A DNA stretch of 36,513 nt, taken from a virus. Below are positions 7,012-34,608 of this stretch, in pieces. The notes under the pieces were generated by a model, which ran no database searches, had not been told where the DNA came from, and was given only the letters and a program-made list of their open reading frames with translations. The DNA lies in the IMG/VR virus record IMGVR_UViG_3300010885_037016, positions 1 through 36,513 of that record; one strand, written 5' to 3'. Both the position numbers and the translations under genes were made by a program. Position 1 is the stretch's first letter. Every line of letters starts with the position of its first letter.

Positions 7012-7968
7012 TTAAATTCCTAAAGCACCCATTAAAGTGGATCCGATTGTTGTATCGATAGGAGAGTAAACACTTGTATTAGTTGGGTCTGTTGGTCCAG
7101 ACCCTAAAATTGTTGGAAACGTTCCAGGGGTGGCTCCTGATGTATCAATATTAGGAATGCCTGAAATTGGGTTTGTTGAATTGGGTGTTGATCCCGATCC
7201 AAAGATAGCGTCTAATATACTTTGTCCAGCATTATTAATTGGGGTTGTTATAGATGGAGGTAGATTATTATAAATACCAGCGAGTTGTCCCGCTTGAGTT
7301 AATGGAGATGTTGCCTCAGTAGCCGTCACGGTTGCTGGTGGCTTAATGTTACCTAACAAAGCAGTTAATGCAGTAGCTTGTCTTGTTGGATCTGTTTGTT
7401 GGAGTTGACCTAAAGTACTTTCTGTTGAGGTACCTTGAGTACCTACGTTAGTTAATGCGTTAGCGGCGTTTACACCGGTTTGTTGGTTTGACAAAGCCTC
7501 TTGCATCTGTTTAGTAAACAAATCACCTTGGGCGTTTGTCAGTGCAGTATCTGCAGCAGTATCACCACGCAATGATCCAAAGTTTCCTCCAGCAATAGAC
7601 CCGGCATCCGATGGCGCTACAATTTGAGGAATTAAATTGTGCAGTTGATCGTTTTGAGCTTGGAACAAACCGCCCATTGCTGTGTTAGTATTTGGTTTTA
7701 CTGCGCCAGTTGTAGGGTCAGTGAGCCAAGGATTTGCAGCACCGGTCGCAATAGTATTTAAAGTGCCCTGAGCTTGTGTAAATGGGTTTGTTGCCGGGTT
7801 ACTCAAGTTGTTGATTGCAGTGCCCGCAACGGTATCATTAAGGGCAGGCATGTTATTGACACCCGTAGTTGACATATTAACCGCGTTTTGTTGGGCGGTA
7901 TCATACCATTTAGGTAATGTAGTTTGACTTACCGTTTGATTGGTTAGTAGTGAGCTAAGTCCTGACAT
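7012..7968 (-). CDS. Putative virion / ejection-associated protein, 318 residues
   Basis: No enzyme motif is visible. The protein is rich in Asn, Thr, Ala, Gln and Gly, poor in charged residues, and has no signal peptide or clear membrane helix. The first residues (SSLLTNQTVSQTTLPKWYDT) and repeated QAQ/NAQ helical stretches resemble small proteins placed beside the ejection proteins of short-tailed phages. Its ATG overlaps the stop of the 370-residue repeat protein in a TAATG arrangement, indicating translational coupling, and 28 bases separate it from the transglycosylase gene. By context I infer an internal or tail-tip virion protein injected or assembled with the transglycosylase protein. 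It could equally be an assembly chaperone. Confidence 0.6.
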   Translation of the reverse strand: MSGLSSLLTNQTVSQTTLPKWYDTAQQNAVNMSTTGVNNMPALNDTVAGTAINNLSNPATNPFTQAQGTLNTIATGAANPWLTDPTTGAVKPNTNTAMGGLFQAQNDQLHNLIPQIVAPSDAGSIAGGNFGSLRGDTAADTALTNAQGDLFTKQMQEALSNQQTGVNAANALTNVGTQGTSTESTLGQLQQTDPTRQATALTALLGNIKPPATVTATEATSPLTQAGQLAGIYNNLPPSITTPINNAGQSILDAIFGSGSTPNSTNPISGIPNIDTSGATPGTFPTILGSGPTDPTNTSVYSPIDTTIGSTLMGALGI

Positions 7969-9080
7969 TATGTATTCTCTTTCTTTTTGGCATGTTCTAA
8001 GTAAGCTAACGGACCTTTGCTATCCGGAGGGAGATCATCAGGTTCATGATCTTGTTTGTGTGCTCGAATAGTTGCTAAAAATTTATCTAATATTGAAGCA
8101 CCACTGTCGCTGCTACCGTTGCCAAGAGAGGAAACCACATCAGCAGGGATGACAAATTCTCCAGTAGCCAACATTGCAGGAACGCTATCGCTTGTGCCAT
8201 CGCCCTCTCCTTGAACATATCTGTGTTTAATTCCACCTTCGCTAAAAAACTCAGGGTGATGAGATCCTTCTTCACCTTCTGCGTATCCACCTTCAGCAAA
8301 TGTAGGTGCGGCTACGTTTACATTGGCAGGAGTCAATGCACCAAAAGTTGGGTTTAACATGCCTAGAGAAGGCGTAGATCCTCCTCCTAAAATATTTGCG
8401 GTTAAGTTTGTTATGTTTCCCGTACCAATCGAAGGGCTTATTCCTGTACCTCCACCTGTACCTCCACCTGTACCTGTACCTGTACCTGTACCTGTACCTG
8501 TGCCAGTCCCCGGTTTAGGTAATCCGCCTGTACCAGTTCCGGGTTTAGGAGTTCCACCTGTACCTGTTCCCGGTTTAGGAGTTCCACCTGTACCTGTTCC
8601 CGGTTTAGGAGTTCCACCTGTACCGCCACCACCGTTACCTAGTTGATTTGGGCCGCCGTTAGATTCATTAATACCTGGCGCAAAGTTATTACCTAAAAGG
8701 TTAGAGCCTCCATTACTCATATTGATACCTGGCGCAAAGTTATTACCTAAAAGGTTAGAGCCGCCATTACTCATATTGATACCTGGCGCAAAGTTATTAC
8801 CTAAAAGGTTAGAGCCGCCATTACTCATATTGATACCTGGCGCAAAGTTATTACCTAAAAGGTTAGAGCCGCCAAAAGATTCATTGATCCCAGGTGCAAA
8901 GTTATTACCTAAAAGGTTAGAGCCACCAAAAGATTCATTGATCCCAGGCGCAAAGTTACCACCAAGCAAGTTGCTACCAAGGAAGTTAGCACCACTGCCT
9001 AGCAAAAAGTTAGCTCCGGGCAAAATTTGGCCCATGATATAACCTTGTAAAAAATTACCGCCAGGTATAAAATCACTCAT
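7968..9080 (-). CDS. Repeat-rich virion protein with conserved GTSDSVPA/GEFVIPADV tail domain
   Basis: The N-terminal part (35-142) is six near-identical 18-residue repeats of the form GSNLLGNNFAPGINxSxG, preceded by related ANFL motifs. Next come four 10-residue GTGGTPKPGT units and a Gly-Thr dipeptide run. The C-terminal 90 residues hold the recognisable phage block GEGDGTSDSVPAMLATGEF (about 291-309) followed by VIPADVVSSLG, flanked by FAEGG and FSEGG motifs. Versions of this block occur in many phage tail and ejection proteins, probably as a folding or interaction module. The repeats resemble pentapeptide-type or low-complexity extended structure. The gene is coupled downstream to the 318-residue gene (TAATG) and starts two bases after the acetyltransferase stop. 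The biochemical role is unknown. Confidence 0.7.
   Translation of the reverse strand: MSDFIPGGNFLQGYIMGQILPGANFLLGSGANFLGSNLLGGNFAPGINESFGGSNLLGNNFAPGINESFGGSNLLGNNFAPGINMSNGGSNLLGNNFAPGINMSNGGSNLLGNNFAPGINMSNGGSNLLGNNFAPGINESNGGPNQLGNGGGGTGGTPKPGTGTGGTPKPGTGTGGTPKPGTGTGGLPKPGTGTGTGTGTGTGTGGGTGGGTGISPSIGTGNITNLTANILGGGSTPSLGMLNPTFGALTPANVNVAAPTFAEGGYAEGEEGSHHPEFFSEGGIKHRYVQGEGDGTSDSVPAMLATGEFVIPADVVSSLGNGSSDSGASILDKFLATIRAHKQDHEPDDLPPDSKGPLAYLEHAKKKENT
8440..8625 (-). repeat. Low-complexity repeats: 30-bp GTGGTPKPGT units and a 6-bp Gly-Thr run
   Basis: Four copies of a 30-bp unit encode GTGGTPKPGT-type residues (one with Leu for Thr). Next to it a CCTGTA-type hexamer (plus strand) repeats and encodes Gly-Thr dipeptides. 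Extended, flexible linker DNA; slippage would add or remove whole residue pairs. Confidence 0.9.
8655..8978 (-). repeat. Six tandem 54-bp repeats in the 370-residue gene
   Basis: Period 54 bp, encoding GSNLLGNNFAPGINMSNG and variants (ESFG or ESNG endings). The central three copies are nearly identical in DNA; outer copies differ by a few codons. The frame is kept throughout, so copy number can change without disrupting the gene. Confidence 0.95.
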
Positions 9081-17631: not shown

Positions 17632-18507
17632 CTATGTAATAAATTTTAAATCGTTAATAAATTTTGTGTTTTCTAAAACTATTTTTTTGGATATTCCCGA
17701 TTCAAGATTTAGTTTTAACATAAAACATTCAGGATCTACTTCCAAGGTCTTTTTAAAATTAATTGATCCGCCGATGTACAACTCCCCATCTAAATATTCC
17801 AACCCACGTAAAAATGTGGTATCAGGATCAACTAACGGTGCTTTTGTTACTTTTAATGAAGTTAAATTAATACTAAGCAATTCGCCGGTCCCTGTAGACA
17901 GGCTTATTAGCTCGTTATTTATTATTTTGATACCATGACAGCACCGACCAACGCTAATGAATAATACGGGCTCTAGCGTGCGTTTATCGAAGTATCCAAA
18001 ATCTGACTCTGTTAAATCACGATTATGACGAATAAAATAGATCTTATCGCCGGCATCATGCATACAATTAATATGTCTGATATCTAATTGATCGGCAAAC
18101 GCAGGAACAATCACCTGATTAAATACCGACATGTAATTTAGATTAAGTTGTTTATTTTCGCCAGTATCTAAGTTATAAATACCAATTGAGTCAATTGCCG
18201 TATTGCAAATATATAATGTATTACCATCTTTTATAATTTGATGTGTGTTCATCCACAACGGGATGTCAATCAAATTTAAAAATTCATAAGTAAATTTATC
18301 AAATTTACCTAATCGATCGTTGGATGTGATATAGAGGCTATCATCATCTTCAGCTATCCCAAACGGTCTAAATGGGTTTCTGTGTTTATTGTGAAAGTGA
18401 TCGCATTGTAGCAGATCAGTTTTAGGTTTTTTAAATGTCATGGTTTCTGACTCTACGTCAAAAACAATAAAATCATATAGTTCTGATGTGATGATTAAGC
18501 GGTTCAT
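17632..18507 (-). CDS. Beta-propeller-like protein with one conserved-type His/Arg per repeat
   Basis: A 291-residue protein built of repeated strand units such as DDDSLYITSNDRLGKFD, DGNTLYICNTAIDSIGIYNL, AGDKIYFIRHN and YLDGELYIGGS, the look of a six-bladed NHL-type propeller. Each unit is preceded by a His or Arg: HRNPFRPFG (H42), NTHQI (H89), IRHINCMH (H145, H150), CCHGIK (H191), LRGLEY (R234). Residues so placed usually point into the central pore and may bind a metal or substrate. There is no signal peptide. The ATG overlaps the oxygenase stop by four bases, so the two are probably made together. Possible roles are a fibre-modifying enzyme, a partner of the oxygenase, or a virion protein. 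The exact family is not recognised. Confidence 0.7.
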   Translation of the reverse strand: MNRLIITSELYDFIVFDVESETMTFKKPKTDLLQCDHFHNKHRNPFRPFGIAEDDDSLYITSNDRLGKFDKFTYEFLNLIDIPLWMNTHQIIKDGNTLYICNTAIDSIGIYNLDTGENKQLNLNYMSVFNQVIVPAFADQLDIRHINCMHDAGDKIYFIRHNRDLTESDFGYFDKRTLEPVLFISVGRCCHGIKIINNELISLSTGTGELLSINLTSLKVTKAPLVDPDTTFLRGLEYLDGELYIGGSINFKKTLEVDPECFMLKLNLESGISKKIVLENTKFINDLKFIT

Positions 18508-19049
18508 TCTACCTCCAAGACAAAATTAATAACAACGCGTCTTTTGTTATGGATCGGAATATTGGACCGGTGCCAAACATTCTTTGCGTCAAAGTAAACG
18601 CAATTACCTTTAATCGGTGGTACAGATAGCTTAATAGTTTCTTTATCTGCCTCATAAACAACAGTGTCGCCATCTGAGTCAGCTACATAGTAAACCGCCG
18701 AGATGTAGTTCCCTACCGCGGCAGGTTCTAAGTCTGTGTGGTTCATGTTTATTAAAGACTGTTCATTATGCACAAGGTTTGGGATTAAATTTACTTTAAT
18801 CCTAGCAATACGCTTTAACTTATATTTAGTCTTTTGTAAAAAGTACCCTACGATACTATTTACTAATGCAAAATAATGGCTTCTTATGGCCCCACCATAG
18901 AAAATAACATGCGTAAATTGCGATGTATACGGATCCGGAGTGGTTGGAATAATCTGTTCAGAATTCCATTGCCATATAAACCCAGGGTTCATAATAAGTT
19001 TTTCAATCTTGTCCTCAACCTCTTGAGGTAATAGCTTTTCTATAATCAT
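18504..19049 (-). CDS. 2-oxoglutarate/Fe(II)-dependent oxygenase (prolyl-4-hydroxylase-like)
   Basis: The double-stranded beta-helix iron site is visible: NMNHTDLE gives the H-x-D pair (H104, D106 from the start chosen here), KNVWHRSN gives the distal His (H160), and NKRRVVINF gives the Arg (170 or 171) that holds 2-oxoglutarate. DAKNVWH and the preceding PPIKGNCVYF are standard for phage and P4H-type enzymes. I place the start at ATG 19047-19049 because AGGAG (19061-19065) precedes it and MIIEKLLPQEVEDKIEKLI is a typical family beginning; a TTG at 19091 in the same frame would give 195 residues and a 20-base overlap with the upstream adhesin. It follows four adhesin genes and is coupled to the propeller gene. 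Substrate unknown; prolines in the fibres are candidates. Confidence 0.88.
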   Translation of the reverse strand: MIIEKLLPQEVEDKIEKLIMNPGFIWQWNSEQIIPTTPDPYTSQFTHVIFYGGAIRSHYFALVNSIVGYFLQKTKYKLKRIARIKVNLIPNLVHNEQSLINMNHTDLEPAAVGNYISAVYYVADSDGDTVVYEADKETIKLSVPPIKGNCVYFDAKNVWHRSNIPIHNKRRVVINFVLEVE

Positions 19050-19071: not shown

Positions 19072-19914
19072 TTAACTAAATTCTTGAACAATCACAATTC
19101 CTGATCCTCCAGCGGATCCTCCGTTAACTTGAAGATATGGAGCAGGAGGGGCATAGTCTGAAAGTCCTCCTAATCCTCCCGACCCTACCTGATAAGATAC
19201 TCCGCTAAAACCAGAAGTGATTTTTTTAATACAATACCCCCCTGATCCGCCTCCACCTCCACCTTCGACAACATTATTTAAAGCATAACTTGAAGCTCCC
19301 CCTCCCCCTCCGGTGTTATTTTTCCCGGGATTTCCTGCATGAAGTTCTCTTCCACCTTGACCAGCCCCTCCAAATACTGAAGACCCGCCTTTACCTCCGC
19401 GAAAATGAGTATAATATGGATAAGGGGAAGGAGCATAGAATGATACCGCACAATCTCCATCACTGCCAGATATATTTAAATCCCCTCCAGAAGCTGAACC
19501 CCCCAAACTAGAATTGGGATACGTAGAATAAATTCCACCTCCCCCAATTCCCCCGGTTCCTCCGTTGGCTATCATAAAAGATCCAAAGTATGAGGCGGAT
19601 CCATCCGTTCCCGTTGTTCTAGTCGACGGAACTACCCCGGAAGATCCTCCTCCACCTCCTCCGCCAATACAAGTTACTATAATATAACTAACTCCACTAT
19701 TTGGAGTATATGTGAAAATTCCGGGAGTTGTAAAATATCTTGTAGTTTTTAGAAATCCAGTTATTGGTAAAGACGCCCAATCTGTTCCTGTGGATGTTAG
19801 TACGTTACCGGAAGTCCCTGGAGATGTGGCGTTTGTTCCTCCTCCAGCGGCCTTAAGCACTCCAAGTGCAGTTATCCTATTACATTGTGTCGCTACATTA
19901 TTAGCTTGTGTCAT
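19072..19914 (-). CDS. Gly-rich tail adhesin, third of three short paralogues (280 residues)
   Basis: The N-terminus (TQANNVATQCNRITALGVLK) and the motif SPGTSGNVLTSTGTDWAS match the two genes upstream. A beta stretch FTTPGIFTYTPNSGVSYIIV leads into a seven-Gly run, then Gly-rich blocks alternate with variable loops rich in Tyr, Pro and Ser (YSTYPNSS; FYAPSPYPYYTHF). It ends GGSGIVIVQEFS. This is the layout of phage Gly-rich receptor-binding tips, which known structures show as packed polyglycine-II helices with variable loops at the end. Its ATG overlaps the preceding paralogue's stop (TAATG). It differs most in the loops, consistent with diversifying selection. Receptor unknown. Confidence 0.8.
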   Translation of the reverse strand: MTQANNVATQCNRITALGVLKAAGGGTNATSPGTSGNVLTSTGTDWASLPITGFLKTTRYFTTPGIFTYTPNSGVSYIIVTCIGGGGGGGSSGVVPSTRTTGTDGSASYFGSFMIANGGTGGIGGGGIYSTYPNSSLGGSASGGDLNISGSDGDCAVSFYAPSPYPYYTHFRGGKGGSSVFGGAGQGGRELHAGNPGKNNTGGGGGASSYALNNVVEGGGGGGSGGYCIKKITSGFSGVSYQVGSGGLGGLSDYAPPAPYLQVNGGSAGGSGIVIVQEFS

Positions 19915-20759
19915 TAGCTATATTCCTCAATGATTACCACTCCGGATCCGCCGGCGCCCCCAACGGAATCTACGGGGAAAAAGTTTATTCCTCCAGCTCC
20001 TCCGCCACCTACTCCCACTTGAAGTGTACTAAAGTTTACGTTAATTTGTTTATAACAGTATGCTCCGGAACCCCCGCCACCGCCTCCTTGATAACTTGGA
20101 GTAATGCTATAAGATCCCCCACCCCCACCTCCGCCGGAGTTTGGTTTTCCCGGGAGTCCGTCGTATGTCCCTCCAGAAGATCTTCCCGCACCCCCAAAAT
20201 ATGAAGACCCGCCGGAGCCACCACACATTAAAATTGATATTGTTCCCCCCGGCGCATTTGGAATACAAGTTAAAGCAGTTTGTCCTGCACCGCCGTTTAT
20301 ATTAAGGGTTCCTCCTGCAGCTGATCCTCCATTGCTTCCGGCCACGTTATAATAACCGGCTCCTAATCCGCCGTTTCCTCCTCCGGCAATCATAATGTAA
20401 GCAGAAAGTGTGGTATTATATAAATAAGAAGATGATCCGGAAGTCCCACTATATAGGTTTGAAGATCCTCCGCCGCCGCCGCCGCCCACCATTCTTACTA
20501 CAATATATCCAGTTCCCGTTGTTGGGATATAATCGTAAATTGTTGCGGACCCTGGGGTGGTATTAAAAAAATATTGAATATTTAATAATCTACCATTTAC
20601 CGGAGATCCTTGAGATGACCAAGCGGATCCCGTAGATGTTAAAACATTACCCGCAGCCCCTGGCGATCCTAATCCGGTTCCTCCCCCGGCTATTTTAAGT
20701 ACGCCTGAAGAATTTACTTGAGAGCTTTCATTTGCCGTGTTGTTTGCTTGGGTTGTCAT
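19914..20759 (-). CDS. Gly-rich tail adhesin, second short paralogue (281 residues)
   Basis: Closely related in layout to its neighbours: start TTQANNTANESSQVNSSGVL, linker AGGGTGLGSPGAAGNVLTST, a sheet IYDYIPTTGTGYIVVRMVGG, a Gly run, then Gly-rich blocks separated by variable loops (CIPNAPGGTISILM; YYNVAGSNGG), ending GGSGVVIIEEYS. The stop overlaps the next paralogue's start and its own ATG overlaps the previous stop, both as TAATG, so the three are translated in series. The Gly codons are largely GGA and GGG. By analogy to Gly-rich adhesins such as the S16/T2-type gp38 it probably binds a host surface receptor. No chaperone domain is visible. Confidence 0.8.
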   Translation of the reverse strand: MTTQANNTANESSQVNSSGVLKIAGGGTGLGSPGAAGNVLTSTGSAWSSQGSPVNGRLLNIQYFFNTTPGSATIYDYIPTTGTGYIVVRMVGGGGGGGSSNLYSGTSGSSSYLYNTTLSAYIMIAGGGNGGLGAGYYNVAGSNGGSAAGGTLNINGGAGQTALTCIPNAPGGTISILMCGGSGGSSYFGGAGRSSGGTYDGLPGKPNSGGGGGGGSYSITPSYQGGGGGGSGAYCYKQINVNFSTLQVGVGGGGAGGINFFPVDSVGGAGGSGVVIIEEYS

Positions 20760-21631
20760 TAACTGTATTCCTCAATAATTACCATTCCGGTTCCACCGGC
20801 TCCTCCAGCAGCTCCTCCATATGGGGCTGATCCTCCTGTACCCCCTCCCCCTACTTGAATAACTATTGAAGGGTATGATGCCAAAATAAGTTTTTTAACT
20901 GCGTAAGCTCCTGCTCCTCCTCCCATAGCTCCATTGTTAATTGTACTGTTATTTTGAGATCCTCCTGCACCACCACCACCAGAGGTTGGGGCCCCGGAAC
21001 CTCCCGCGATTGTGGTTACAGTATTGGTGGTATCTACAAAAGGTTTACCCGCTCCTCCAAAAAAAGATGATCCCCCAATTCCTCCACATGCCAATTGTCC
21101 CGTACGAGGAGTAGGTGAATAACTATAAGTCCAAAAACCTTCGCCATCTCCTCCTTGAATATTAAGATCTCCACCTATAGCTGTTCCCCCCAGCCCTCCA
21201 AATATATCTGTATAATTAGCTGCCCCGTCTCCTCCATTTCCACCGTTAGCTACAACAATCACAACTGCCGATAGCGGCACTATTAATTGTGAATAGTATC
21301 CGGCATATCCGGGTATGCCATCTGAGGATCCCCCTCCTCCGCCGCCACCTATTAACGTTGCAATAATATAATTAGTTCCTGTTGTAGGGGTATACGTATA
21401 TTGAGTATATGAGGTAGGTGATGCGGCACCTGTATAATAAAAATATTGAGTATTTAATAGTCTTCCAGTGGCTGGAGCTGCTTGAGAAGTCCACACTGTA
21501 CCGTCAGAAGTTAATAAATTACCTGCGGTGCCAGGGGATGTTAACCCGGTGCCTCCTCCCGCGGGTTGAAGTATACCGGATCCATTTATTTGTGAACTTT
21601 CAATTGCTGCGCTATTTGCTTGGGTTGTCAT
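20759..21631 (-). CDS. Gly-rich tail adhesin, first short paralogue (290 residues)
   Basis: First of three short tandem copies: start TTQANSAAIESSQINGSGIL, linker GGGTGLTSPGTAGNLLTSDG, then a beta sheet (YTQYTYTPTTGTNYIIATLI) leading to a seven-Gly run. The rest alternates Gly-rich segments with variable loops (GFWTYSYSPTPRTGQLA; DTTNTVTTIAGGSG) and ends GGTGMVIIEEYS. Six bases separate its ATG from the stop of the 567-residue relative. The conserved N-terminus is probably the attachment or trimerisation part and the loops the receptor-contacting part, as in known Gly-rich phage adhesins (inference). Confidence 0.8.
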   Translation of the reverse strand: MTTQANSAAIESSQINGSGILQPAGGGTGLTSPGTAGNLLTSDGTVWTSQAAPATGRLLNTQYFYYTGAASPTSYTQYTYTPTTGTNYIIATLIGGGGGGGSSDGIPGYAGYYSQLIVPLSAVVIVVANGGNGGDGAANYTDIFGGLGGTAIGGDLNIQGGDGEGFWTYSYSPTPRTGQLACGGIGGSSFFGGAGKPFVDTTNTVTTIAGGSGAPTSGGGGAGGSQNNSTINNGAMGGGAGAYAVKKLILASYPSIVIQVGGGGTGGSAPYGGAAGGAGGTGMVIIEEYS

Positions 21632-21637
21632 GATTAA

Positions 21638-23341
21638 TTACCATTCAAAGATAGCTATTGCAGCAGATGGTGCTGATCCACCCGAGGTGCCCGCCATCGT
21701 TGCATATCCTCCACCGCCGCCAGCACCATATCCTGTACCCACTCCTCCAGCGCTAGAATCTGAAATAGATCCTCCAGCACCACCTCCACCTAAGAGTGAT
21801 GCGGCCCCATTGCCTCCTGCTGCGGAGTATGTTGTAATCGCTACAGATCCTAAATTAATACCACTTGTTGTTTGGCCTGCATTCCCAGTAATATTAAAAT
21901 CTCCTCCAGATGCTGTCCCCCCAGCACCACCTTTTGATCCTAATGCGGTGCCAGCGTTTGTAGCAGCACTGCCTTGATTTGCTACAATACTGGACGAAAG
22001 AACTTGAGTTCCGGAAGAAATAGTAACTTGGTTACTAATATTAATTGTAATATTAAGTGTGTTACCTGGGGTTAACCCTGTTAAATATTTAATTGCGCAC
22101 CCACCAGCGCCCCCACCACCCCCCGGTGATATTATAGTTCCTGTGGTATATCCGCCAATGCCATATCCCCCACCCCCTTGAGCTATTACTTTAACTGCCG
22201 TTACGCCTGTAGGAATTGTGAATACTCCGGTGGCTGTAAATTGTTGAGAGAATATACCGGCAAGGCCCCCACCACCGCCACCAGATGCATTAATTGTTTG
22301 GTTTGGCCATGTACCTGATATAGTGACGTTTGTACCTGCAACAAGAGCCGGTGTTGTTGTTCCTGTTCCGCCGTTAGCAATTGGTATGGTGCCTGCTGCA
22401 GACAAAACTTGTGCAGTGCTTGCCACTGTGGCCGCGCCTGTTGCGTTAGCGTATAAAATACCTGTGAGCGTTCCCGCCACACCTGTGCCGCCGTTGGTTG
22501 CTGTTAATGCGCCAGATACGTTAGTGTTTGCTACACCTAAAGCAATCGACCCAAACGCTGGAGCTCCTGCGCCTGCCGAGATTAATGGTTGGCCAGAGGT
22601 GCCCACTGTAGTGTACGCATGCGCGGTTCCTGTGCCATACCCAATACCACCGGCAGTTGGAGTTGCTGTTGAATTGGTTCCACCGTTAGCGATCGCTAAC
22701 GTTCCGCCTAAAGTAACTGGACCTGTTGTCCCAGTGGCTGGTGTCAATCCTGTTGATCCACCACTAAATGATGTCACTGCAGTGCCATTGGTGATTGAGG
22801 TATATACCATACACTCAATAACGTCCCCACCAACTGTAGGCGATGCCAAAGTGACTGATGTGCCATTGGTTGCCGTAAAGTCGGTTTGAGCAAGTTTAAT
22901 ACCGTTACGGAAAACGTCAATGGTTCCTAGCGCATAGGTTACGGTAATTACTGTGGTTCCCGCAGAAGGAAAGAAGTCTGTGCGGTTAATTACTGTGCCA
23001 CCACTGCCTGATCCGCCACCACCAATGGATCCCCAGACAGCACCGTTAAATCCTTCAAACGTTGATGAAGAGGTATTAAATCGCAACATCCCCTGCACAC
23101 CGGTAGGTTGTTGTGCTGTGGTTCCTGCAGGAATAGTAATCGCTCCTGTGCCTAAAAATATCCCGGCGGTTGCGCTTTTGGTTGCTATTAATTGAACAGC
23201 ACCGGCGCTATCTTTATAAAATAGTTTGCCGTCAGCAATGTTAATTGCCAATTCGCCATTGGTCAAATTAGGTGCAATGGGAGTATTAGCTGTTGTTGAG
23301 CTATAGTATAATGATATTGGGGTAAATCCGGCTGCTGCCAT
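21638..23341 (-). CDS. Tail fibre with Gly-rich adhesin C-terminus (567 residues)
   Basis: A modular fibre. At 26-44 is LTNGELAINIADGKLFYKD, an N-terminal motif common in phage fibres. At about 120-185 is a beta domain (VTYALGTIDVFRNGIKLAQT; TNGTSVTLASPTVGGDVIE), which has a counterpart in the 1878-residue fibre. Then come repeats with IANGGTNSTATPTAGGIGYG and IPIANGGTGTT. The last about 210 residues match the Gly-rich adhesin domain of the three genes after it (FTIPTGVTAVKVIAQGGGGY; GGGGAGGCAIKY), ending IAIFEW. It is the longest member of the tandem family, and the short copies look like C-terminal duplicates with a new leader. Ten-plus GG runs make the region Gly-rich. Confidence 0.85.
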   Translation of the reverse strand: MAAAGFTPISLYYSSTTANTPIAPNLTNGELAINIADGKLFYKDSAGAVQLIATKSATAGIFLGTGAITIPAGTTAQQPTGVQGMLRFNTSSSTFEGFNGAVWGSIGGGGSGSGGTVINRTDFFPSAGTTVITVTYALGTIDVFRNGIKLAQTDFTATNGTSVTLASPTVGGDVIECMVYTSITNGTAVTSFSGGSTGLTPATGTTGPVTLGGTLAIANGGTNSTATPTAGGIGYGTGTAHAYTTVGTSGQPLISAGAGAPAFGSIALGVANTNVSGALTATNGGTGVAGTLTGILYANATGAATVASTAQVLSAAGTIPIANGGTGTTTPALVAGTNVTISGTWPNQTINASGGGGGGLAGIFSQQFTATGVFTIPTGVTAVKVIAQGGGGYGIGGYTTGTIISPGGGGGAGGCAIKYLTGLTPGNTLNITINISNQVTISSGTQVLSSSIVANQGSAATNAGTALGSKGGAGGTASGGDFNITGNAGQTTSGINLGSVAITTYSAAGGNGAASLLGGGGAGGSISDSSAGGVGTGYGAGGGGGYATMAGTSGGSAPSAAIAIFEW

Positions 23342-23361: not shown

Positions 23362-23628
23362 TTATGCATCTTGAGCATCGATGAAGTGCTTAGTTTTTAA
23401 TACAGGATACAACAACGCGCGAGTAGCATCCGCAACGTAATCATCTTCAGATAAAGTGATATTTTGCCAAGCTACAGGTTGTGCGTTTGCTAACCTAATT
23501 GCTTGCGATATGTATCCAAACAATACCACTTCAATTGTTTTATTTTTAAAATCTTCGTTAATCGACCCAATATTCCAATATGTTGAGTCAATTCCAAATT
23601 GTGTACTAATTGTTTTTGCTAAAGCCAT
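23362..23628 (-). CDS. Hypothetical 88-residue protein in the fibre cluster
   Basis: A small mixed alpha/beta protein (QFGIDSTYWNIGSINEDFKN; GYISQAIRLANAQPVAWQNI; DYVADATRALLYPVLKTKHF). It has no signal peptide, membrane helix or cysteine pattern. It lies between the cupin gene (15-base gap) and the 567-residue fibre (20-base gap), with a purine-rich AAGGAG before the ATG. Small proteins in this place are often structural or assembly factors for fibres, but I have no motif to support a function. Confidence 0.7.
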   Translation of the reverse strand: MALAKTISTQFGIDSTYWNIGSINEDFKNKTIEVVLFGYISQAIRLANAQPVAWQNITLSEDDYVADATRALLYPVLKTKHFIDAQDA

Positions 23629-25375: not shown

Positions 25376-28303
25376 TTAGTACCCGCTATATCCGTTAATC
25401 ATTGTGGCCAATTGCCAGGTATTGCTAGTTGCATCATATTGTATCGCAAGAACCATTTTAATGCCAACTGCCAAACTAATTGGACTTGTTGTTGATGACG
25501 ATGTTGGTATTTTAATACCTGCATTTAGTGTAATATTTACTGCCGTTCCTGCGCCGCCAGTTGTTGGGTTTATAATCCATAGTCTTACCATCGACCCATC
25601 TGCTGGAGTTCCTGATGGTGGATTAATAGTAAGTGTATAAGGAGAAGTAGTAAGGGATATTCTATAGTTATTATTAGCAACTAAAGTAGGAGTGCCGGCG
25701 CCATAAGCTAGTGTTGTATAAGGTGCGTTAGCTGGAGTAGGTAAAACAGCACTAACTAAGTTTTTACTTGCATCCGTAAATACAGCTTGAGAAGCAGTTA
25801 GCGCTGGGTAATTATTAATACCATTATGTGTTGTTGTACTTGTTCCTGCGGCAGAGCCTACAGTAATATTGGTTGTTGAACCTGTTAGTCCCCCTGTTCC
25901 AATACTGACCGTTTTTGTTGATACGGAATCAGTTGCTCCAGTTGCAATGTTAACTGTTTGTGCTTGGGTTGTTCGCCCCACAGTAATTGTACTTATTGCG
26001 CCAGCTGAACCAATATTTACTATTCCAGTTGATGACGCAATTCCGGCTGAACAAATATTAACTGTTTTAGTTGTACTTGCTGCGGTTGTACCACCAGCAA
26101 TTGTGACTGTTTGTCCGGCAGTAGAATTGCCTAATGTAATTGTGCCAGTTTGTGATGTGCCACCAATTGTTACGGTACCTGTGGTTTGACTTGTTCCTAC
26201 ATTAATTGTTAAACCATTTATTGAATTTGTTGAAACGCTATTTCCTACATTAATTAATCCACTAGCAATAAATGTTTGACTATGATTAACAGTAAATACT
26301 GCGCCATCACCTGTAGCGCCTATTGTAGTATTAGTGCCAGTTCCAGTTGTATTTAAATTTAAAGTACCAGCTGCTGTACCCAATGTAACATTATTAGGAA
26401 TAGCATTTATATCGCCATTTATATTTATGGTTGATGCAGTATTACCCAAAGTTAAAATATTACTAACCCCATAAGTTCCTGTTGCAATATTTACTGCACA
26501 AGAACCTACAGCAGAACCCGCATTTGCTATATTAACCGTAGTCGTATTACTACTAGTTACATTTGCACTAGCAATATCAATTGTTTGCGAAAGCGTACTT
26601 CTTCCTAATATAATCCCACCTGTAGCATTTGCGCCACCAAGGATTATAGAGGCAGACAGTTGGTTTGTAGCTAATGATTGTGTACCTGATATGCTACCAT
26701 AAAGATTTAATTGTCCTGATACGGTTAAAAATCCAGCTGTTGTAAATCCTGCAGGAATAGATACTGATCCATTAAGTGTAGTGGTGACTGATCCTGCCGT
26801 TGGTCCAATAACAATATTGGTTGATGAACCTGTTGCACTATTTGTACCAATATTAATTGTTTTAAGTGATGATGAATTAGTTACACCTGTACCAATGTTA
26901 ATCGTTTGCGATACAGTTGATCGCCCTAATGTAATTGTGCCAGTAGCACCTGTCCCACCAATTGTTAAAGCGCCTGTAGTTTGTGTTGTAGCAATATTTT
27001 GATTAGTTGTAGCATCGCCAGTTATTTGTAATGCGCCAGCAACATTTAACGAGCCTTTAAGCGTTGTTGCTATTGTAGATGAATTTCCAATAGTTACAGT
27101 ATTATCCCCGCCACCAACAGCATTTGCACCAATTACGATTTCATTGTTATAAGCACCTGCTGATCCTGTACCAACTACATTTGCTCCAATATAAACACAA
27201 TTATAAACTCCTGTTGCGCCAAAAGCGGATAAATTAGCATTATATCCAACAAAAGTGTTATAATCCCCGCTATTTAAATAGCTTCCAGAGACAGAACCTA
27301 TTGCAGTATTGTATGCCCCAGCATCTAGCGAAACTAATGATTGATAGCCAAAAGCAGAATTATCATTATCTAATCCGCCTCCACTTAACCCGCTATCTCT
27401 TAACGTATCTTTACCTACGGCAGTATTATTAATAGAATCTAAATTAATAGCAGCAGATCCAACAACAACATTTCTATTGCTATTAACACCTCCACCACGG
27501 CCAACAGGAACGCTATTTACTGTAATATTTGTTGCAAACACGGGGTTAGAAGTTAAAGCAACAGAACCTGTGCCACTTACACCATAAGAAGTTCCCCATG
27601 CACTGCCTGTTGAATTAGGAATACCAGCACCAGGGTAAACCATACCACTGCCCACTGATGCCCAGGTACCGTCTCCACGTAAGTAGGTAGATGATGATGG
27701 GGTGCCCGTCACCGGGTTGGCTGCCATATTGGTAACTGTGCTAATTACCGTACCGCTTGTTGGTAAGGTTAATGCCGTATTGGCGGTCGCAGTGAATGAT
27801 TGTAAATATGGCCCATTAAAAAATACGCTGTTTGCCATGTTCAATGTGGCTGATCCGTTATTGACTCCCGTGCCGCCATACGCTGGCGCAATAATACCGA
27901 GATCGCCGGATCCAAGTATCGTAGCCCCACTAACAGTTTTAATATTTGATCCACTAATTAACGCGGCTTGTTTTGCGTTAAATGCGATCCAATCAGTTGG
28001 TGACAAGGCCCCACGGTTTGCTGATGAGGCCGTCGGTACGTTTAATGTGATAACTGGTGTTGTTGTACTTGAGGATACGGTTGAGTTTAAATCAGATCCT
28101 GTTGTACCTAATGTCAATCCCGCAACCGATGTAACAGTACCCACATTGCTAGTATACCCACTAGGATTTGTATTAGAATATCCTCCTAAAGCTGTTAGCG
28201 CAGCAGATGCCGTAGTTGAGCCCGTACCACCATTTGAGATATTTAGTATCCCCGTCGTGGTTACGCCTTCCGCTAATATACTAAGATTACGTGATATTGT
28301 CAT
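25376..28303 (-). CDS. Giant tail fibre with YadA-like head repeats (975 residues)
   Basis: A modular trimeric-fibre-type protein. The first about 230 residues contain common fibre motifs (GGTGSTTASAALTALGGYS; LSPTDWIAFNAKQ; TPSSSTYLRGDGTWAS). From about 275 to 415 it has YadA/trimeric-autotransporter-style repeats (NNTAVGKDTL; NSAFGYQSL; YNTAIGS; DYNTFVGYNANL). A long series of about 20-residue solenoid units of the form TITLGxSTxxQTVNI follows to about 820, and then a distinct C-terminal domain (YAGAGTPTLVANN-like beta part). Units are shared with the 1878-residue fibre upstream, evidence of duplication or recombination between the two. It is separated from that gene by 17 bases. There is no self-cleaving chaperone domain. 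The receptor is unknown. Confidence 0.88.
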   Translation of the reverse strand: MTISRNLSILAEGVTTTGILNISNGGTGSTTASAALTALGGYSNTNPSGYTSNVGTVTSVAGLTLGTTGSDLNSTVSSSTTTPVITLNVPTASSANRGALSPTDWIAFNAKQAALISGSNIKTVSGATILGSGDLGIIAPAYGGTGVNNGSATLNMANSVFFNGPYLQSFTATANTALTLPTSGTVISTVTNMAANPVTGTPSSSTYLRGDGTWASVGSGMVYPGAGIPNSTGSAWGTSYGVSGTGSVALTSNPVFATNITVNSVPVGRGGGVNSNRNVVVGSAAINLDSINNTAVGKDTLRDSGLSGGGLDNDNSAFGYQSLVSLDAGAYNTAIGSVSGSYLNSGDYNTFVGYNANLSAFGATGVYNCVYIGANVVGTGSAGAYNNEIVIGANAVGGGDNTVTIGNSSTIATTLKGSLNVAGALQITGDATTNQNIATTQTTGALTIGGTGATGTITLGRSTVSQTINIGTGVTNSSSLKTINIGTNSATGSSTNIVIGPTAGSVTTTLNGSVSIPAGFTTAGFLTVSGQLNLYGSISGTQSLATNQLSASIILGGANATGGIILGRSTLSQTIDIASANVTSSNTTTVNIANAGSAVGSCAVNIATGTYGVSNILTLGNTASTININGDINAIPNNVTLGTAAGTLNLNTTGTGTNTTIGATGDGAVFTVNHSQTFIASGLINVGNSVSTNSINGLTINVGTSQTTGTVTIGGTSQTGTITLGNSTAGQTVTIAGGTTAASTTKTVNICSAGIASSTGIVNIGSAGAISTITVGRTTQAQTVNIATGATDSVSTKTVSIGTGGLTGSTTNITVGSAAGTSTTTHNGINNYPALTASQAVFTDASKNLVSAVLPTPANAPYTTLAYGAGTPTLVANNNYRISLTTSPYTLTINPPSGTPADGSMVRLWIINPTTGGAGTAVNITLNAGIKIPTSSSTTSPISLAVGIKMVLAIQYDATSNTWQLATMINGYSGY

Positions 28304-28320
28304 TACTTATCCTTATGCTA

Positions 28321-31300
28321 CTAAGACCAGTTACCTACAGTAGTCGTTGTACTTGTTGCGCTTATTGGTGATATTTTAAAGTAAGCACCTGTTTGCACCA
28401 CTGCGGCGGCGGCTACCGATAATGAAACTTGTGGAATAACAGTACCGGCAACAGTTACGCGAATAAATCCCTTAATCAATGCACTGCCGGTTGTGTTGGT
28501 GCTTGCCGCTGTAATTGCAGTATTTGCGGCAGTGTTATTTGTTTGATATGCCGCATTGGTTGAACCTGATGTAATTGTATTGGCTGCAGTTCCTGACCTA
28601 GATGCATGTGCCATCCATTGTTGTGTATATGTTGCAGTTCCAGCTAAAGCAAAGCCTAAAGTACCTGATGTTGCCGACATACCTGTTAACATAAATTGGC
28701 ATTCAAATTCATATAATCCGACTGCTAAAGTAACTGCGCCGTTGGTTGTTGCATTTAATAATTTTTGTGCGGCTATTTGTGATGTTAGCGTGTATGTTGA
28801 AGTCAACATTTGTATTTGTGAAGTTTGAACATATCCGCGGGATGTGCCAAATGGTGTCATATACAAAGCTGTGCCATCATATTCAACTGCGCCTGCTGTG
28901 GCAGAAGTTAAGTTAGTTCCACTTGTTAATAGGATAGGTGCAATAGATGCTGTACCAGCAGTTACTGTAACTCCAGTAAATCTACCTGTAGAAGCTGTTG
29001 TAGCTCCTACGCTTACTGCATTTAAAGCGCTGACTGTAGAGCCTAACGCTTGTGACGTTGCACCAAATGTAATTGCACTATTAGTCAAACCACCATTAGG
29101 AATACCTGTAAAGTTAGTACCTGTTAGTGTAGGGGTTGATGACCATGTAGCTGTAGCAGCGTTACCTGCTGATACTAATACTTGACCAGCAGTACCAAAG
29201 TTAGTTGTCCCTGATAGCGCTGGAGTTGTGCCTAAGTTAGTATTTAATCCAATCGCACCACTTGCGTTAATCACATGAGCAGACTGACCTACAGTTCCCC
29301 ATGCTAAATATGTCTTAAAGCCGTTGCCTGATCCTACAGTAATATCGCCATCATGGGCAGAGAAATAAACGCCATTGTTAATGCTAAAGTAGTCGGCAGG
29401 AGTAGATGCGCTGAATATAGATGAGTTCATACCAAACTCACCATAGAACGTGCTATCTGTACCTGAGTCGTTACTTAATACATAGTTAGTAGAAGCACCA
29501 GCAGTCGCTGACTTGTTCTGTAGCATGTGTTGCAAGTAACTACCAGAGATTGTTGCACCAGCAGCGTAGGGGCTGTTAGAAGCGTTAAATGACAACGTAG
29601 GGGTTGTGCTAGTAGAACTGCTAGTAGAGATGTAAGTAAATGCCCCTGTAGATGCTGCTGTACCACCAATAGCAGGAGGACTAGATAAATCTAATGTACC
29701 GCCAAGGGTTAAGTTGCCTGATGATGTAACTGTACCTGTAAGTGTTAATCCGTTAACCGTTCCTGTACCGCCAACACTTGTGACAGTCCCCTGTGGATTG
29801 GCTGCAGTTGTGATCCCTGTTACTCGGCCATAGGTATCTATAGTTACTACAGGAATTAAAGTTGCCGATCCGGTGGTACCTGCCGTAGCTATACCAGAGC
29901 TTAAATTTACCGTTGGAATGGCTGACGTACCAGCTATAGTTAATGTGGTTGAGGTAATAGACGTAACTGTGCCGCTACCTTTATTATTAAAAGTATTCCA
30001 ATCGGTTGATGTCAAATATCCGTTTGTTGTTGTATTAGCTTGACTAATAACTAAATGACTGCCTGATGTACCTGATCCGGATAATGGCGCATCTGCTGTA
30101 ACTGCAGTTAAATAACTGCCTGCTGGTTGTTTATTATTAAATGTATTCCAGTCAGTTGAGGTTAAATACCCTGACACACTAGTTGTTGCTGCAGCCATTG
30201 AAATAGCAGGTGTAGTTCCGCCGCTTGATACGACGGGGGCTGTACCAGTTACGCTTGTTACTCCGCCGCCGGACACAGTTGACCATGTGCCATCACCACG
30301 TAAGTATGTAGTTGATGAAGGTGTGCCTGTAGCAGAGATTCCACCAACAGGAAGTCCTGTACCATTAGCTAATGTAATTGTTGGGGCTGTGCCTAGCACA
30401 ACTGAACCTGTGCCTGTGGTTGCTACGCTAACAAGATTATTGGATATATCTGTAAAAACTGCTTGAGATGCTGTTAGGGTTGGATAATTATTAATACCAT
30501 TATGTGTGGTTGTACTTGTTCCTGTTGTTGAGCCAATTGCAATATTAGTTATAGAGGTAGCATTACCTGCTGTTCCAATATTAATTGCTTTAGTAGTAGA
30601 CGCAGCAGTTAGTCCAGTGGCTATATTGACAGTTTGTGCGCCTGTGCTTCTTCCAAGCGTAATAGTACCTGTTGATAAGTTTGCGCCACCAATAGTAATT
30701 ACTTGCGATGAACTAGAAGCATTACCAATACTTATTGTTTGTGCGCCTGTGCTTCTGCCTATTGTAATTGCGCCTGTTGATGAAGTACCACCTACAATTA
30801 TTGAATTTGTTAGTTGATTAGAACCAATAACTTGATTGACTGATGTACTACCAACTAATTGAAAATCAGAATTTGCTGTAAATGTTCCAGCTACTGTAAG
30901 ACCACTATTAACACCTGTGCTTCCGTTTGACGAGCCAATAATAATAGTAGTTGTTGAACCACCAACCCCATTATTTCCTATATTAATATTATTGGTAACC
31001 CCTGTACCTATTGCGCCAGTAGCTATATTTACTGTTTGTCCAGCAGTAGACTGCCCTAATGTAAGCGTTGCTGTATCAGATGCCCCGCCAATTGTTATTG
31101 CACCTGTTAAAGATGAGCTATCACTTAATACGACATTGCCTGTGCCTGTCGTACCGTAAGAAGTACCCCATGCACTACCTGTAGAGTTTGGAATACCGGC
31201 ACCAGGGTAAACCATAGAACCGCCACCAGCAGCCGACCATGTGCCGTCACCACGAAGATAAGTAGTTGATGATGGTGTGCCTGTTGCAGAGATTCCACCA

Positions 31301-33957
31301 ACAGGAAGTCCTGTACCGTTAGCTAATGTAATTGTTGGTGCTGTTGCTAATACAACTGATCCTGTGCCTGTAGTTGCTACACTGACAAGATTCTTACTTG
31401 CATCTGTAAAGACTGCCCTAGAAGCAGTAAGCGTTGGAAAATTATTAGTACCATTTAATGTTGTAGTGTTACTGCCAGTGCCTATAGCAATAGTAGGACT
31501 ATTAATACTTGTTAGATCATGATTAACAAATAAACCATCACCATTACCAGCAACCCCCACATAAGTTGAGTTGATAGTTCCAGAGGTAGTATTAATATTT
31601 ACACCGCCACCAGAGCCTGTAGTTCCACCTTGTATATTAAGTGCTGCACCAGCATTAATTGCTGTATTATTTCCTTGCATAGTTAAAGCATTACCATTAA
31701 TAATGGTTGTATGAATTGCTGTACTTGTAGAATATTTACCTATATTTACATTAGATACGCCTGATGATGTAGTTCCAGTTCCTATATTAATTGTTCTTGT
31801 TTGTGCAAGCCCTGTATTTCCAGAACCAATATTAAGTGTATAAGTTCCTGTGCTTCTACCTATATTAATAGCGCCTGTAGATAATCCTGTACCGCCAATA
31901 TTTACAATACTTGTAGTTGCTGCGCCATTAGCAATATTAATATTTTGTGCGCCAGTTGATTGCCCTAATGTAATTGTGCCTGTGGCACTAGCACCACCAA
32001 TTGTTAAATTTCCTGTAGTTTGATTTGTAGCTATTTCTTGGGCAGTTGTTGTACCATTACCGCCAACATTTAACTTCCCATAAAGATAGGTATTAGCTGT
32101 GCTTGAATTGCCAATTGTTGTTGTATTAGTACCCAATCCTGTAGAATTATAACCAATTGCAATTTCATTACTTCCGCTTGTAGCTGTTGCCCCTGATCCA
32201 ATTGCTGTTGATTGAATTCCGCATTGAGCATTATATCCAACGCCCACACTATCTGTAATTCCAAATGAGCCTAAAGCAAGACAGCCTAGTGCTGTATTAT
32301 TATTTCCTGTTAAATTTACACCTGCTTGATACCCAATAGCAGTAAGATTGCTTGCGCCATTAGTATTTGCTAAAGAGTTATATCCAATAGCTACATTTTG
32401 TGTGCCACTAAAATTATTACTAGCTAACGCGTTAGCCCCTAAAATAGTATTAAAAGAACCACCACCAAATAATGAAGTGCCATCACCTACTGTTACAGGA
32501 ATTCCTCCATTATCTACAACGATGTCTGAATTAAAAGTTGCAGTATTAGAGAATGTTGGGTTTGTGTTTAATACAACACTACCTGTTCCTGTAGTGCTAT
32601 AAGATGTCCCCCATGCACTACCTGTAGATTTTGGTATTCCTGCGGATGGATAAACCATCGATCCTCCGCCGCCGGAAGCCCAAGTAAACGCTGATCCTGT
32701 CCATTGCAATACCGTACTTGCTACGGTTGGTGCTGCAATAAATCCTGTAGTTCCCACCCCAGTTTGGTAAGGAATTTGATTAGTCGTTCCTCCGGCTAAA
32801 TTCATAACTGTTGCAACACCGCTAATGGTGTATGCAATAACTTCAACTATATCCCCTGCCGTTGCTGGATTTGATAATATAATAGAAGTTCCGGATGAAG
32901 CTGTATAATCTGAAGCATTTAACAATACTCCATTTAAAAATACTTCTGCATACCCCACTGGGTATGACACTGTAAAAGTTGTTTGTCCATTAGATGCGGT
33001 AAACGGTGTTCTAGTATAAAACGCTCCTCCAGCTGGCCCAGTTGGTCCCGTAGGTCCTGTGGGGCCAGTGGCGCCTTGTGGTATGGTAAAGTTAAATACT
33101 GCTGATGAAGACGATCCAGAATTTGTAACGGAGGCAGAAGATCCTGCGGCACCCGTAGTAGTTGAACCTACTGCAATTGTTGCGGCAGTTCCTGCTGCCC
33201 CTGTGGCTCCGGTAGCCCCTGTAGGCCCTAGAGGGCCCGTTGGTCCTGTTGGGCCGGTTGGTCCTGTGGCACCTTGAGGTATAGTGAAATCAAATACCGC
33301 TGTTGAGGATGTTCCTGAGTTATTAACTAATGCTGAAGATCCTGCGGCACCTGTTGTAGTGGATCCAATGGATATTGTAGCTGCCGATCCTGTAGCGCCT
33401 GTAGCGCCTGTAGCGCCTGTAGCGCCTGTAGCGCCTGTAGCGCCTCGTGGAATAGTAAAATTAAATACCGCGGCCGATGTTGAACCTGAGTTAGTTACCG
33501 TTGCTGAAGATCCTGCGGCTCCGGTGTTGGTGACGCCAATAGCTACCGTAGCTGCTGACCCAGTTGCTCCGGTGGCTCCGGTTGGGCCTGTGGGACCTGT
33601 GGGGCCAGTTAATCCAGTGGGCCCTTGCGGTCCTGTTGGGATACCAAAGTTAAATATAGCGTTTGATGTTGTGCCTGAATTAGTAACTGTAGCGCTACTA
33701 CCAGCTGGTAATGTTGTAGTTGATCCAATAGTAACAGATGCTGTTACCGGACCTAAAGTGGCTGTTGTGCCATCTGTGTAATTAAACACTAAATTACTGC
33801 TAGATAGCTGAACACTGGTAATCAGTTTACCAGGCGAAATGGCGTTTGCAAGTTGATTAACTTGCGTTTGTTTTGTAACTCCACCTTGCACAACTACCGT
33901 TAACTCATTGCCGGTGATCGTGTTAGCTACAGGTAACTGGGATATTGGACGATCCAT
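28321..33957 (-). CDS. Giant collagen-like tail fibre (1878 residues)
   Basis: The largest gene in the window. The N-terminal 70 residues include a likely attachment part. From 73 to 310 four copies of a beta module (TTTGAAGSSATVTNSG, then AVFNFTIPQG) alternate with collagen-like Gly-X-Y blocks (about 109-133, 172-190, 229-256, 295-310), mainly GPT and GAT triplets. A beta domain (315-377) matches one in the 567-residue fibre. YadA-style repeats (NVAIGYNSL; LTAIGYQAG; NTALGCLAL) and TITLGxSTGAQ solenoid units follow, then two LTSTDWNTFNNK modules, and a C-terminal beta domain ending VIPQVSLSVAAAAVVQTGAY. Internal direct repeats of about 225 bp occur. It probably forms a long homotrimer that carries the receptor-binding head. 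Confidence 0.9.
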   Translation of the reverse strand: MDRPISQLPVANTITGNELTVVVQGGVTKQTQVNQLANAISPGKLITSVQLSSSNLVFNYTDGTTATLGPVTASVTIGSTTTLPAGSSATVTNSGTTSNAIFNFGIPTGPQGPTGLTGPTGPTGPTGATGATGSAATVAIGVTNTGAAGSSATVTNSGSTSAAVFNFTIPRGATGATGATGATGATGATGSAATISIGSTTTGAAGSSALVNNSGTSSTAVFDFTIPQGATGPTGPTGPTGPLGPTGATGATGAAGTAATIAVGSTTTGAAGSSASVTNSGSSSSAVFNFTIPQGATGPTGPTGPTGPAGGAFYTRTPFTASNGQTTFTVSYPVGYAEVFLNGVLLNASDYTASSGTSIILSNPATAGDIVEVIAYTISGVATVMNLAGGTTNQIPYQTGVGTTGFIAAPTVASTVLQWTGSAFTWASGGGGSMVYPSAGIPKSTGSAWGTSYSTTGTGSVVLNTNPTFSNTATFNSDIVVDNGGIPVTVGDGTSLFGGGSFNTILGANALASNNFSGTQNVAIGYNSLANTNGASNLTAIGYQAGVNLTGNNNTALGCLALGSFGITDSVGVGYNAQCGIQSTAIGSGATATSGSNEIAIGYNSTGLGTNTTTIGNSSTANTYLYGKLNVGGNGTTTAQEIATNQTTGNLTIGGASATGTITLGQSTGAQNINIANGAATTSIVNIGGTGLSTGAINIGRSTGTYTLNIGSGNTGLAQTRTINIGTGTTSSGVSNVNIGKYSTSTAIHTTIINGNALTMQGNNTAINAGAALNIQGGTTGSGGGVNINTTSGTINSTYVGVAGNGDGLFVNHDLTSINSPTIAIGTGSNTTTLNGTNNFPTLTASRAVFTDASKNLVSVATTGTGSVVLATAPTITLANGTGLPVGGISATGTPSSTTYLRGDGTWSAAGGGSMVYPGAGIPNSTGSAWGTSYGTTGTGNVVLSDSSSLTGAITIGGASDTATLTLGQSTAGQTVNIATGAIGTGVTNNINIGNNGVGGSTTTIIIGSSNGSTGVNSGLTVAGTFTANSDFQLVGSTSVNQVIGSNQLTNSIIVGGTSSTGAITIGRSTGAQTISIGNASSSSQVITIGGANLSTGTITLGRSTGAQTVNIATGLTAASTTKAINIGTAGNATSITNIAIGSTTGTSTTTHNGINNYPTLTASQAVFTDISNNLVSVATTGTGSVVLGTAPTITLANGTGLPVGGISATGTPSSTTYLRGDGTWSTVSGGGVTSVTGTAPVVSSGGTTPAISMAAATTSVSGYLTSTDWNTFNNKQPAGSYLTAVTADAPLSGSGTSGSHLVISQANTTTNGYLTSTDWNTFNNKGSGTVTSITSTTLTIAGTSAIPTVNLSSGIATAGTTGSATLIPVVTIDTYGRVTGITTAANPQGTVTSVGGTGTVNGLTLTGTVTSSGNLTLGGTLDLSSPPAIGGTAASTGAFTYISTSSSTSTTPTLSFNASNSPYAAGATISGSYLQHMLQNKSATAGASTNYVLSNDSGTDSTFYGEFGMNSSIFSASTPADYFSINNGVYFSAHDGDITVGSGNGFKTYLAWGTVGQSAHVINASGAIGLNTNLGTTPALSGTTNFGTAGQVLVSAGNAATATWSSTPTLTGTNFTGIPNGGLTNSAITFGATSQALGSTVSALNAVSVGATTASTGRFTGVTVTAGTASIAPILLTSGTNLTSATAGAVEYDGTALYMTPFGTSRGYVQTSQIQMLTSTYTLTSQIAAQKLLNATTNGAVTLAVGLYEFECQFMLTGMSATSGTLGFALAGTATYTQQWMAHASRSGTAANTITSGSTNAAYQTNNTAANTAITAASTNTTGSALIKGFIRVTVAGTVIPQVSLSVAAAAVVQTGAYFKISPISATSTTTTVGNWS
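30281..30505 (-). repeat. Direct repeat within the 1878-residue fibre gene (copy A)
   Basis: This stretch matches 31235-31459 base for base at most positions, offset 954 bp with no gaps (318 codons), and includes the codons for GTPSSTTYLRGDGTWS and LPVGGISATG. A shorter relative lies in the 975-residue fibre near 25740-25850. Confidence 0.85.
31235..31459 (-). repeat. Direct repeat within the 1878-residue fibre gene (copy B)
   Basis: Second copy of the repeat at 30281-30505, in the same orientation and frame. Recombination between the copies would delete or duplicate exactly 318 codons without a frameshift. Confidence 0.85.
33028..33741 (-). repeat. Fourfold composite of beta module plus collagen-like block
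   Basis: Four units of about 60 residues: a module containing GAAGSSAxVTNSG and VFNFTIPQG, followed by Gly-X-Y triplets (GPT, GAT, GPQ, GLT, GAA). Modules differ by a few residues, and block lengths vary, consistent with repeat expansion and contraction. Confidence 0.9.
33391..33444 (-). repeat. Six perfect 9-bp repeats in a collagen-like block
   Basis: TGTAGCGCC occurs six times without a mismatch on the plus strand, encoding GAT triplets on the minus strand. Perfect identity across synonymous sites indicates recent slippage rather than selection on protein alone. Confidence 0.95.
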
Positions 33958-33972: not shown

Positions 33973-34608
33973 CTATGAGTATGTGAACAGATGGGCACCG
34001 ATACCGATACCATAATTTGTTGTTACTGTAATATCGACTGCACCAGCGACATGTGGCGGAGTAGTTACAACAATGTTTCTATCATTTACGATAATAATAC
34101 TTGTTGCTGAAGATGTGCCAAAAGATACACCCGTAGTAGTTGATAAATATAGTCCTGTAATTGTTACAATAGTACCGCCAACATACGTTGCTGTATTTGG
34201 TGTTACGCCTAGTACAGTAGGAGGAATTCCCGTTGCTGGTGGAGGCGTTGGCACTGGAGGTACATATACGTTACCGTATTCTGCAATTGGTCCTGTGGCA
34301 AGATCGCCCTGTTGACCAGAATAAGGAGGAACCCCTTCAATAAAGATTGAATCGCTGCTTTGTGTTTGCACTTGTGCGGTATCCACTGCAATATTGGTAT
34401 CAGGTCTTGGAAACCTAAGTGATATGTTTTCTGTTTTAATTGCCGGAAGACGCCAAGGATCAAACTGATCTACGTCATCTTTACAGACACGTAATCCTGG
34501 AAAATTAGGATCTGGCATTAAATCGACATACGGGAACTTCCTACTGCAACGATCACAGATCGCTACAGATAGGACAGAATTACCCCGCGTGTCAAGATAA
34601 ATAGGCAT
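33973..34608 (-). CDS. Small virion protein: degenerate zinc-ribbon head plus IPT/TIG domain (211 residues)
   Basis: The N-terminal 70 residues have CDRCSRK (C18, C21), then PDPNFPGLRVCKDD (C42), then QFDPWRLPAIKTENISLRFP. This pattern recurs in phage minor virion proteins, where the second pair is usually C-x-x-C; here only C42 remains and the last ligand is Asp, so zinc binding may be lost or altered. A Pro-rich linker (116-130) follows, then an IPT/TIG immunoglobulin-like domain (130-211) with VTPNTATYVGGTIVTITGLY, the usual TIG opening. Its position after the giant fibre's start and before the small structural genes suggests a decoration or fibre-linker role. The ATG overlaps the upstream stop by one base. 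Confidence 0.75.
   Translation of the reverse strand: MPIYLDTRGNSVLSVAICDRCSRKFPYVDLMPDPNFPGLRVCKDDVDQFDPWRLPAIKTENISLRFPRPDTNIAVDTAQVQTQSSDSIFIEGVPPYSGQQGDLATGPIAEYGNVYVPPVPTPPPATGIPPTVLGVTPNTATYVGGTIVTITGLYLSTTTGVSFGTSSATSIIIVNDRNIVVTTPPHVAGAVDITVTTNYGIGIGAHLFTYS

Follow-up and report, generated by a model that had tools for sequence, protein, structure and literature searches.

The window, a complete viral record of 36,513 bp, carries its structural genes on the minus strand, and these genes have their matches in a group of IMG/VR contigs. Among annotated phages, the closest counterparts of the 866-aa virion protein of the window are in a Manatee Spring (freshwater) phage and in Caulobacter phages such as RW, which makes a freshwater source for the virus likely. 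The fibre cassette holds, in this order, a TIG-domain protein (33973-34608), an 1878-aa fibre with a collagen repeat (28321-33957), a 975-aa protein (25376-28303), a 390-aa protein, a 185-aa cupin-like protein, an 88-aa protein (23362-23628, minus strand), the four genes g1 to g4 and a gene resembling 2OG-Fe(II) oxygenases (18504-19049, minus strand). In relatives the first 170 aa of the collagen-repeat fibre are conserved and the remainder is replaced, with lengths of 222 to 3228 aa across contigs, and the 88-aa gene, here located upstream of g1, is found between two fibres in G018 and G019 (59% identity). The oxygenase-like gene, 52-78% identical in 8 related contigs, forms the downstream edge of a variable slot. 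Its score for Pfam 2OG-FeII_Oxy_3 is slightly under the cut-off, and the names conflict, with Pfam pointing to a 2OG-Fe(II) oxygenase and the PHROG family to a DNA endonuclease V.

Four neighbouring minus-strand open reading frames are present at the positions and in the frames given by the first-pass annotation: g1 (567 aa, 21638-23341), g2 (290 aa, 20759-21631), g3 (281 aa, 19914-20759) and g4 (280 aa, 19072-19914). The last three each consist of a leader/linker (aa 1-58 in g2; 21458-21631, 20586-20759 and 19741-19914, respectively, all on the minus strand) followed by a Gly-rich head, and the leader of g4 is the most diverged of the three. The TAATG overlaps that were said to join the genes in series were found at the g2/g3 junction (GAGGAATACAGTTAATG, 20757-20773, minus strand) and the g3/g4 junction (GAGGAATATAGCTAATG, 19912-19928, minus strand), in both cases as a one-base overlap, but not between g1 and g2, which are separated by a 6-nt gap carrying a poor Shine-Dalgarno (SD)-like site. 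Both overlapping joints have the same design (GAGGAATAYAGYTAATG), in which the shared codons of the EEYS end provide an SD-like site 9 nt ahead of the next ATG (anti-SD pairing of -5.6 kcal/mol at g2/g3). The end of g4 (CAAGAATTTAG) has no SD-like site and no overlap with the next gene. Promoter and terminator scans gave results at about chance level, and a clear internal terminator was not found in the array.

The sharing of leader and linker by the three short copies was confirmed, g2, g3 and g4 being 49-53% identical in amino acids. Their heads are related as well: pairwise local alignment scores of 379-481 compare with means of 168-221 for shuffles in which every glycine position was held (z 10-12.5), and the likeness is therefore not due to composition. 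In the tree, g2-g4 form a single clade (support 99/100) with g1 outside. These alignments and this tree show the three genes to be homologous, with a single origin among the sampled sequences. Exact DNA matches between copies do not exceed 12-17 bp, synonymous divergence is close to saturation (pS 0.57-0.72), and pN (0.19-0.39) is below pS in all pairs, while all three open reading frames are intact and each has its own start. Judged from their sequences, the copies are old, intact and under constraint. Full-length relatives were not found when g2 and g3 were searched singly against viral contigs, nor when g2 was searched against annotated phages, and a search for the glycine pattern with alignment A3 gave at least two loci, both weak, among the matches listed. 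Variable segments alternate with conserved glycine blocks in g2-g4; retroelement diversification of the tips was considered and rejected, as no reverse transcriptase (RVT_1) was found in the 36.5-kb record, which may itself be incomplete.

The first gene of the array is of a different kind. The N-terminus of g1 is 51-77% identical to that of the syntenic fibres of G001, G018, G038 and G043, and its conserved N-terminal domain (aa 1-60; 23162-23341, minus strand; alignment A5) presumably serves virion attachment. Among these relatives the N-terminus of this second fibre is constant and the C-terminus is swapped for unrelated ones, being Gly-rich in G001 and S74-like in G038 and G043. The leader of g2-g4 is absent from g1. 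The earlier claim that all four genes share a Gly-rich domain holds as far as the label Gly-rich is concerned and for the heads of g2-g4, but the Gly-rich C-terminus of g1 (21638-22276, minus strand) reaches z values of only 1.6-2.4 to g2-g4, compared with 6.4 to its G001 homologue. The latter ties g1 to g2-g4, with z values of 4.5-6.6 to these three under the same glycine-preserving shuffles. We rejected g1 as a further copy of the g2-g4 gene because of its weak z values and its placement in the tree; a distant clade of all four genes is not rejected by the AU test (p = 0.115). By its conserved N-terminus, g1 is the resident fibre ('fibre 2') of this phage group, and the array consists of three paralogues and one fibre rather than of four equal copies.

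The leader of g2-g4 (MTQANNVAIESSQINSSGVLQPAGGGTG type; TQANNVAIESSQINSSGVLQPAGGGT) is also found at the start of standalone proteins from 16 other contigs (some of which may be one phage from different samples), mostly with unrelated heads and in differing gene surroundings. We defined these 'leader plus head' standalone fibre proteins as a group, with the module TQANNxAxESSQxNxSGVLxxAGGGT at the protein start, which is present in g2-g4. The leader HMM gave E values of 1e-28 to 1e-30 for g2-g4, from which it was built, and of 1e-11 to 1e-24 in the other contigs. Multiple leader genes were found in this window only, with a single one per locus elsewhere, although the flanks fetched were limited and more distant copies could be missed. 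Over 106 protein pairs with unrelated heads, the median identity of the leader was about 88% at the amino-acid level and 79% at the DNA level, so that the constraint is on the protein and not on the DNA, and this conservation points to a conserved protein contact. In six contigs (L096, L100, L101, L109, L118 and L119) the leader gene and the preceding S74-terminated fibre overlap by 4-17 nt; one and the same leader thus stands behind more than one type of fibre, depending on the phage. A search of annotated phages with the N-terminal 151 residues of the leader protein from L122 gave no match. The 975-aa protein of the window begins with another version of the leader (MTISRNLSILAEGVTTTGILNISNGGTG), which is present also in L098 and L130. 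The leader of g2-g4, which hardly varies although the heads behind it in many contigs are unrelated, is a candidate for a common plug between phages.

Family and structure comparisons support the earlier description of these genes as receptor-tip proteins, as does their position in the fibre cassette. The tail family phrog_863 was matched by g4 (1.3e-16), g2 (4.6e-12) and g3 (1.8e-7), with the best stretch covering leader, linker and first glycine block. None of the four passed the cut-off of 24.3 bits for Pfam Gly_rich_2 (PF21722), with 23.6 bits for g2, 19.6 for g4, 17.0 for g3 and no hit for g1; other phage tips reach 51-109 bits. AlphaFold gave a poor model of full-length g2 (pLDDT 58) and, for the g3 head as a monomer (19 sequences), a model with pLDDT 84 and pTM 0.83, a beta-sandwich of roughly twelve strands into which a long Gly-rich segment is inserted. 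For this model, the top Foldseek matches were the tail tip of Bxb1 and the fibre of Pam3, both of them weak (E 5e-4 and 2e-3; TM about 0.2) and partly carried by composition. Pam3 gp24 was also the best profile match in the PDB (E 0.03) and among the top three fold matches, both with marginal scores. The g3 head model is consistent with a phage tip rich in glycine but is no proof of polyglycine II.

We read the slot in related contigs between the TIG gene and the oxygenase-like gene as fixed markers. Between the fibre and the oxygenase-like gene the relatives differ: some lack anything similar, some carry a single protein bearing the leader of g2-g4, and others carry unrelated genes. For instance, fibre 2 is followed by nothing in G038, by a 109-aa gene in G043, by a 421-424-aa protein in G018 and G019, and in G001 by a 126-aa chaperone-like gene and then a single leader protein whose head is not Gly-rich. 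A chain of three was not found in the 34 cassettes examined, many of which are cut by contig ends, so that this absence is only indicative; nearest to it came L250, with a leader protein adjoining a Gly-rich one. Conservation across relatives of only one of the four genes had been named beforehand as refuting the adhesin reading, and this is in part what we see: g1 is the conserved fibre, and g2-g4 as a set lack such conservation.

The statement that phages usually carry one such adhesin understates the occurrence of multi-tip cassettes. Some environmental phages have two or three Gly-rich tip genes per cassette (L050, L098, L099, L193, L207 and L283, the last being the Manatee Spring podovirus MW202674). 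Unlike the array, the cassettes of L050, L193, L207, L098 and MW202674 have no common GGGTG leader and no TAATG chain of three, and a small gene of the MSHFAKV type, about 115 aa long, often lies between their tips. Synechococcus phage ACG-2014a has five adjacent tip-like genes with a common N-terminal region, annotated as hypothetical (Syn7803C53_32-36; L282, 6009-12088). These resemble the array in lying behind a putative short tail fibre and in including a Gly-rich head, but there is just one such head, the heads are mostly mutually unrelated and the leader is another one. The gp38 adhesins of S16/T2 type are encoded by one gene and cap the long gp37 fibre. In these polyglycine II adhesins, variable segments separate glycine-rich motifs at a fibre tip (PMC9608196), a pattern resembling that of g2-g4, and we found no sequence match between the two. 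In Pam3, gp24 forms a homotrimeric fibre that requires a chaperone; host binding has been proposed for its TNF-like and Gly-rich domains (PMC9608196). Like g2-g4 (280-290 aa), gp24 (PDB 7YFW, 7YPX) is a short protein; it has an N-terminal docking part and a beta-sandwich with a Gly-rich distal part, as proposed or modelled for g2-g4, but it is a single gene with a dedicated chaperone and has a long N-terminal helix instead of the GGGTG leader. In the branched tail spikes of Ackermannviridae, several receptor-binding proteins per virion broaden host recognition (PMC11414711), although these recognise polysaccharides and belong to other protein families. Tip-gene arrays are therefore a kind already known from genomes; the variant here is a TAATG-linked series of three paralogues whose heads are all Gly-rich and share a single type of leader, and our literature search found no published description of such a chain.

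We consider it reasonably probable that g2-g4 are duplicated, co-translated paralogous receptor-binding tips with a common docking leader, beside the resident fibre g1. The three would stem from duplication, probably in place, of a single 'leader plus head' gene adjacent to g1, and ribosomes reinitiating from gene to gene would yield comparable amounts of g2, g3 and g4. The leader would dock each protein, probably as a trimer, on a common fibre or tail site, with the Gly-rich heads facing outward and their variable segments binding host surface receptors, so that a virion or population may display several specificities at once. The location of the array between fibre and oxygenase-like gene, as in the cassettes of syntenic relatives, supports the tip reading; against it count the weakness of the structural matches, the failure to find this three-copy set in any relative among the contigs sampled, and that no obvious fibre-assembly chaperone was found in the array, unlike in G001 and for Pam3 gp24.

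Exactly three copies, translated serially and sharing leader and glycine frame, would also suit an obligate 1:1:1 heterotrimer, in which g2, g3 and g4 make up one asymmetric tail tip with three receptor-binding faces, docked by three leaders, and the baseplate of phage Mysterious, with its heterotrimer of gp35, gp36 and gp37, offers a precedent (PMC13252515). We regard this as unlikely: all other such leader proteins were found singly per locus, for which reason homomeric use is likely ancestral, complementary interfaces are not evident in the sequence, and the leader of g4 has diverged. The proposal of a reservoir or of alternative tips, in which one copy is used and the others store specificities exchanged by recombination, draws on the variable segments between conserved glycine blocks and on the modularity of fibre tips across relatives. 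It proved weakly supported and seems distinctly improbable, given exact matches of no more than 12-17 bp, the high pS, an own start and intact frame for each copy and, with no reverse transcriptase in the record, no diversity-generating retroelement within these 36.5 kb; old, intact and constrained copies favour use of all three. Decay after duplication, with one copy (g2 or g3) functional and g4 drifting, would fit the diverged leader of g4 and the lack of an EEYS-coded SD-like site at its end, but appears very unlikely, as the frame has stayed open despite near-saturated synonymous divergence and pN is below pS in all pairs.

As duplicated tips, g2-g4 offer a clean natural case of tip-gene duplication: an uncultured phage combines one docking leader with three heads that have diverged, where related viruses have one such gene or none, and the shared leader makes the assignment of heads to receptors testable with recombinant proteins. 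The window also encodes a separate Gly-rich protein of 370 aa (7968-9080), which lies distant from the array and varies in length in relatives.
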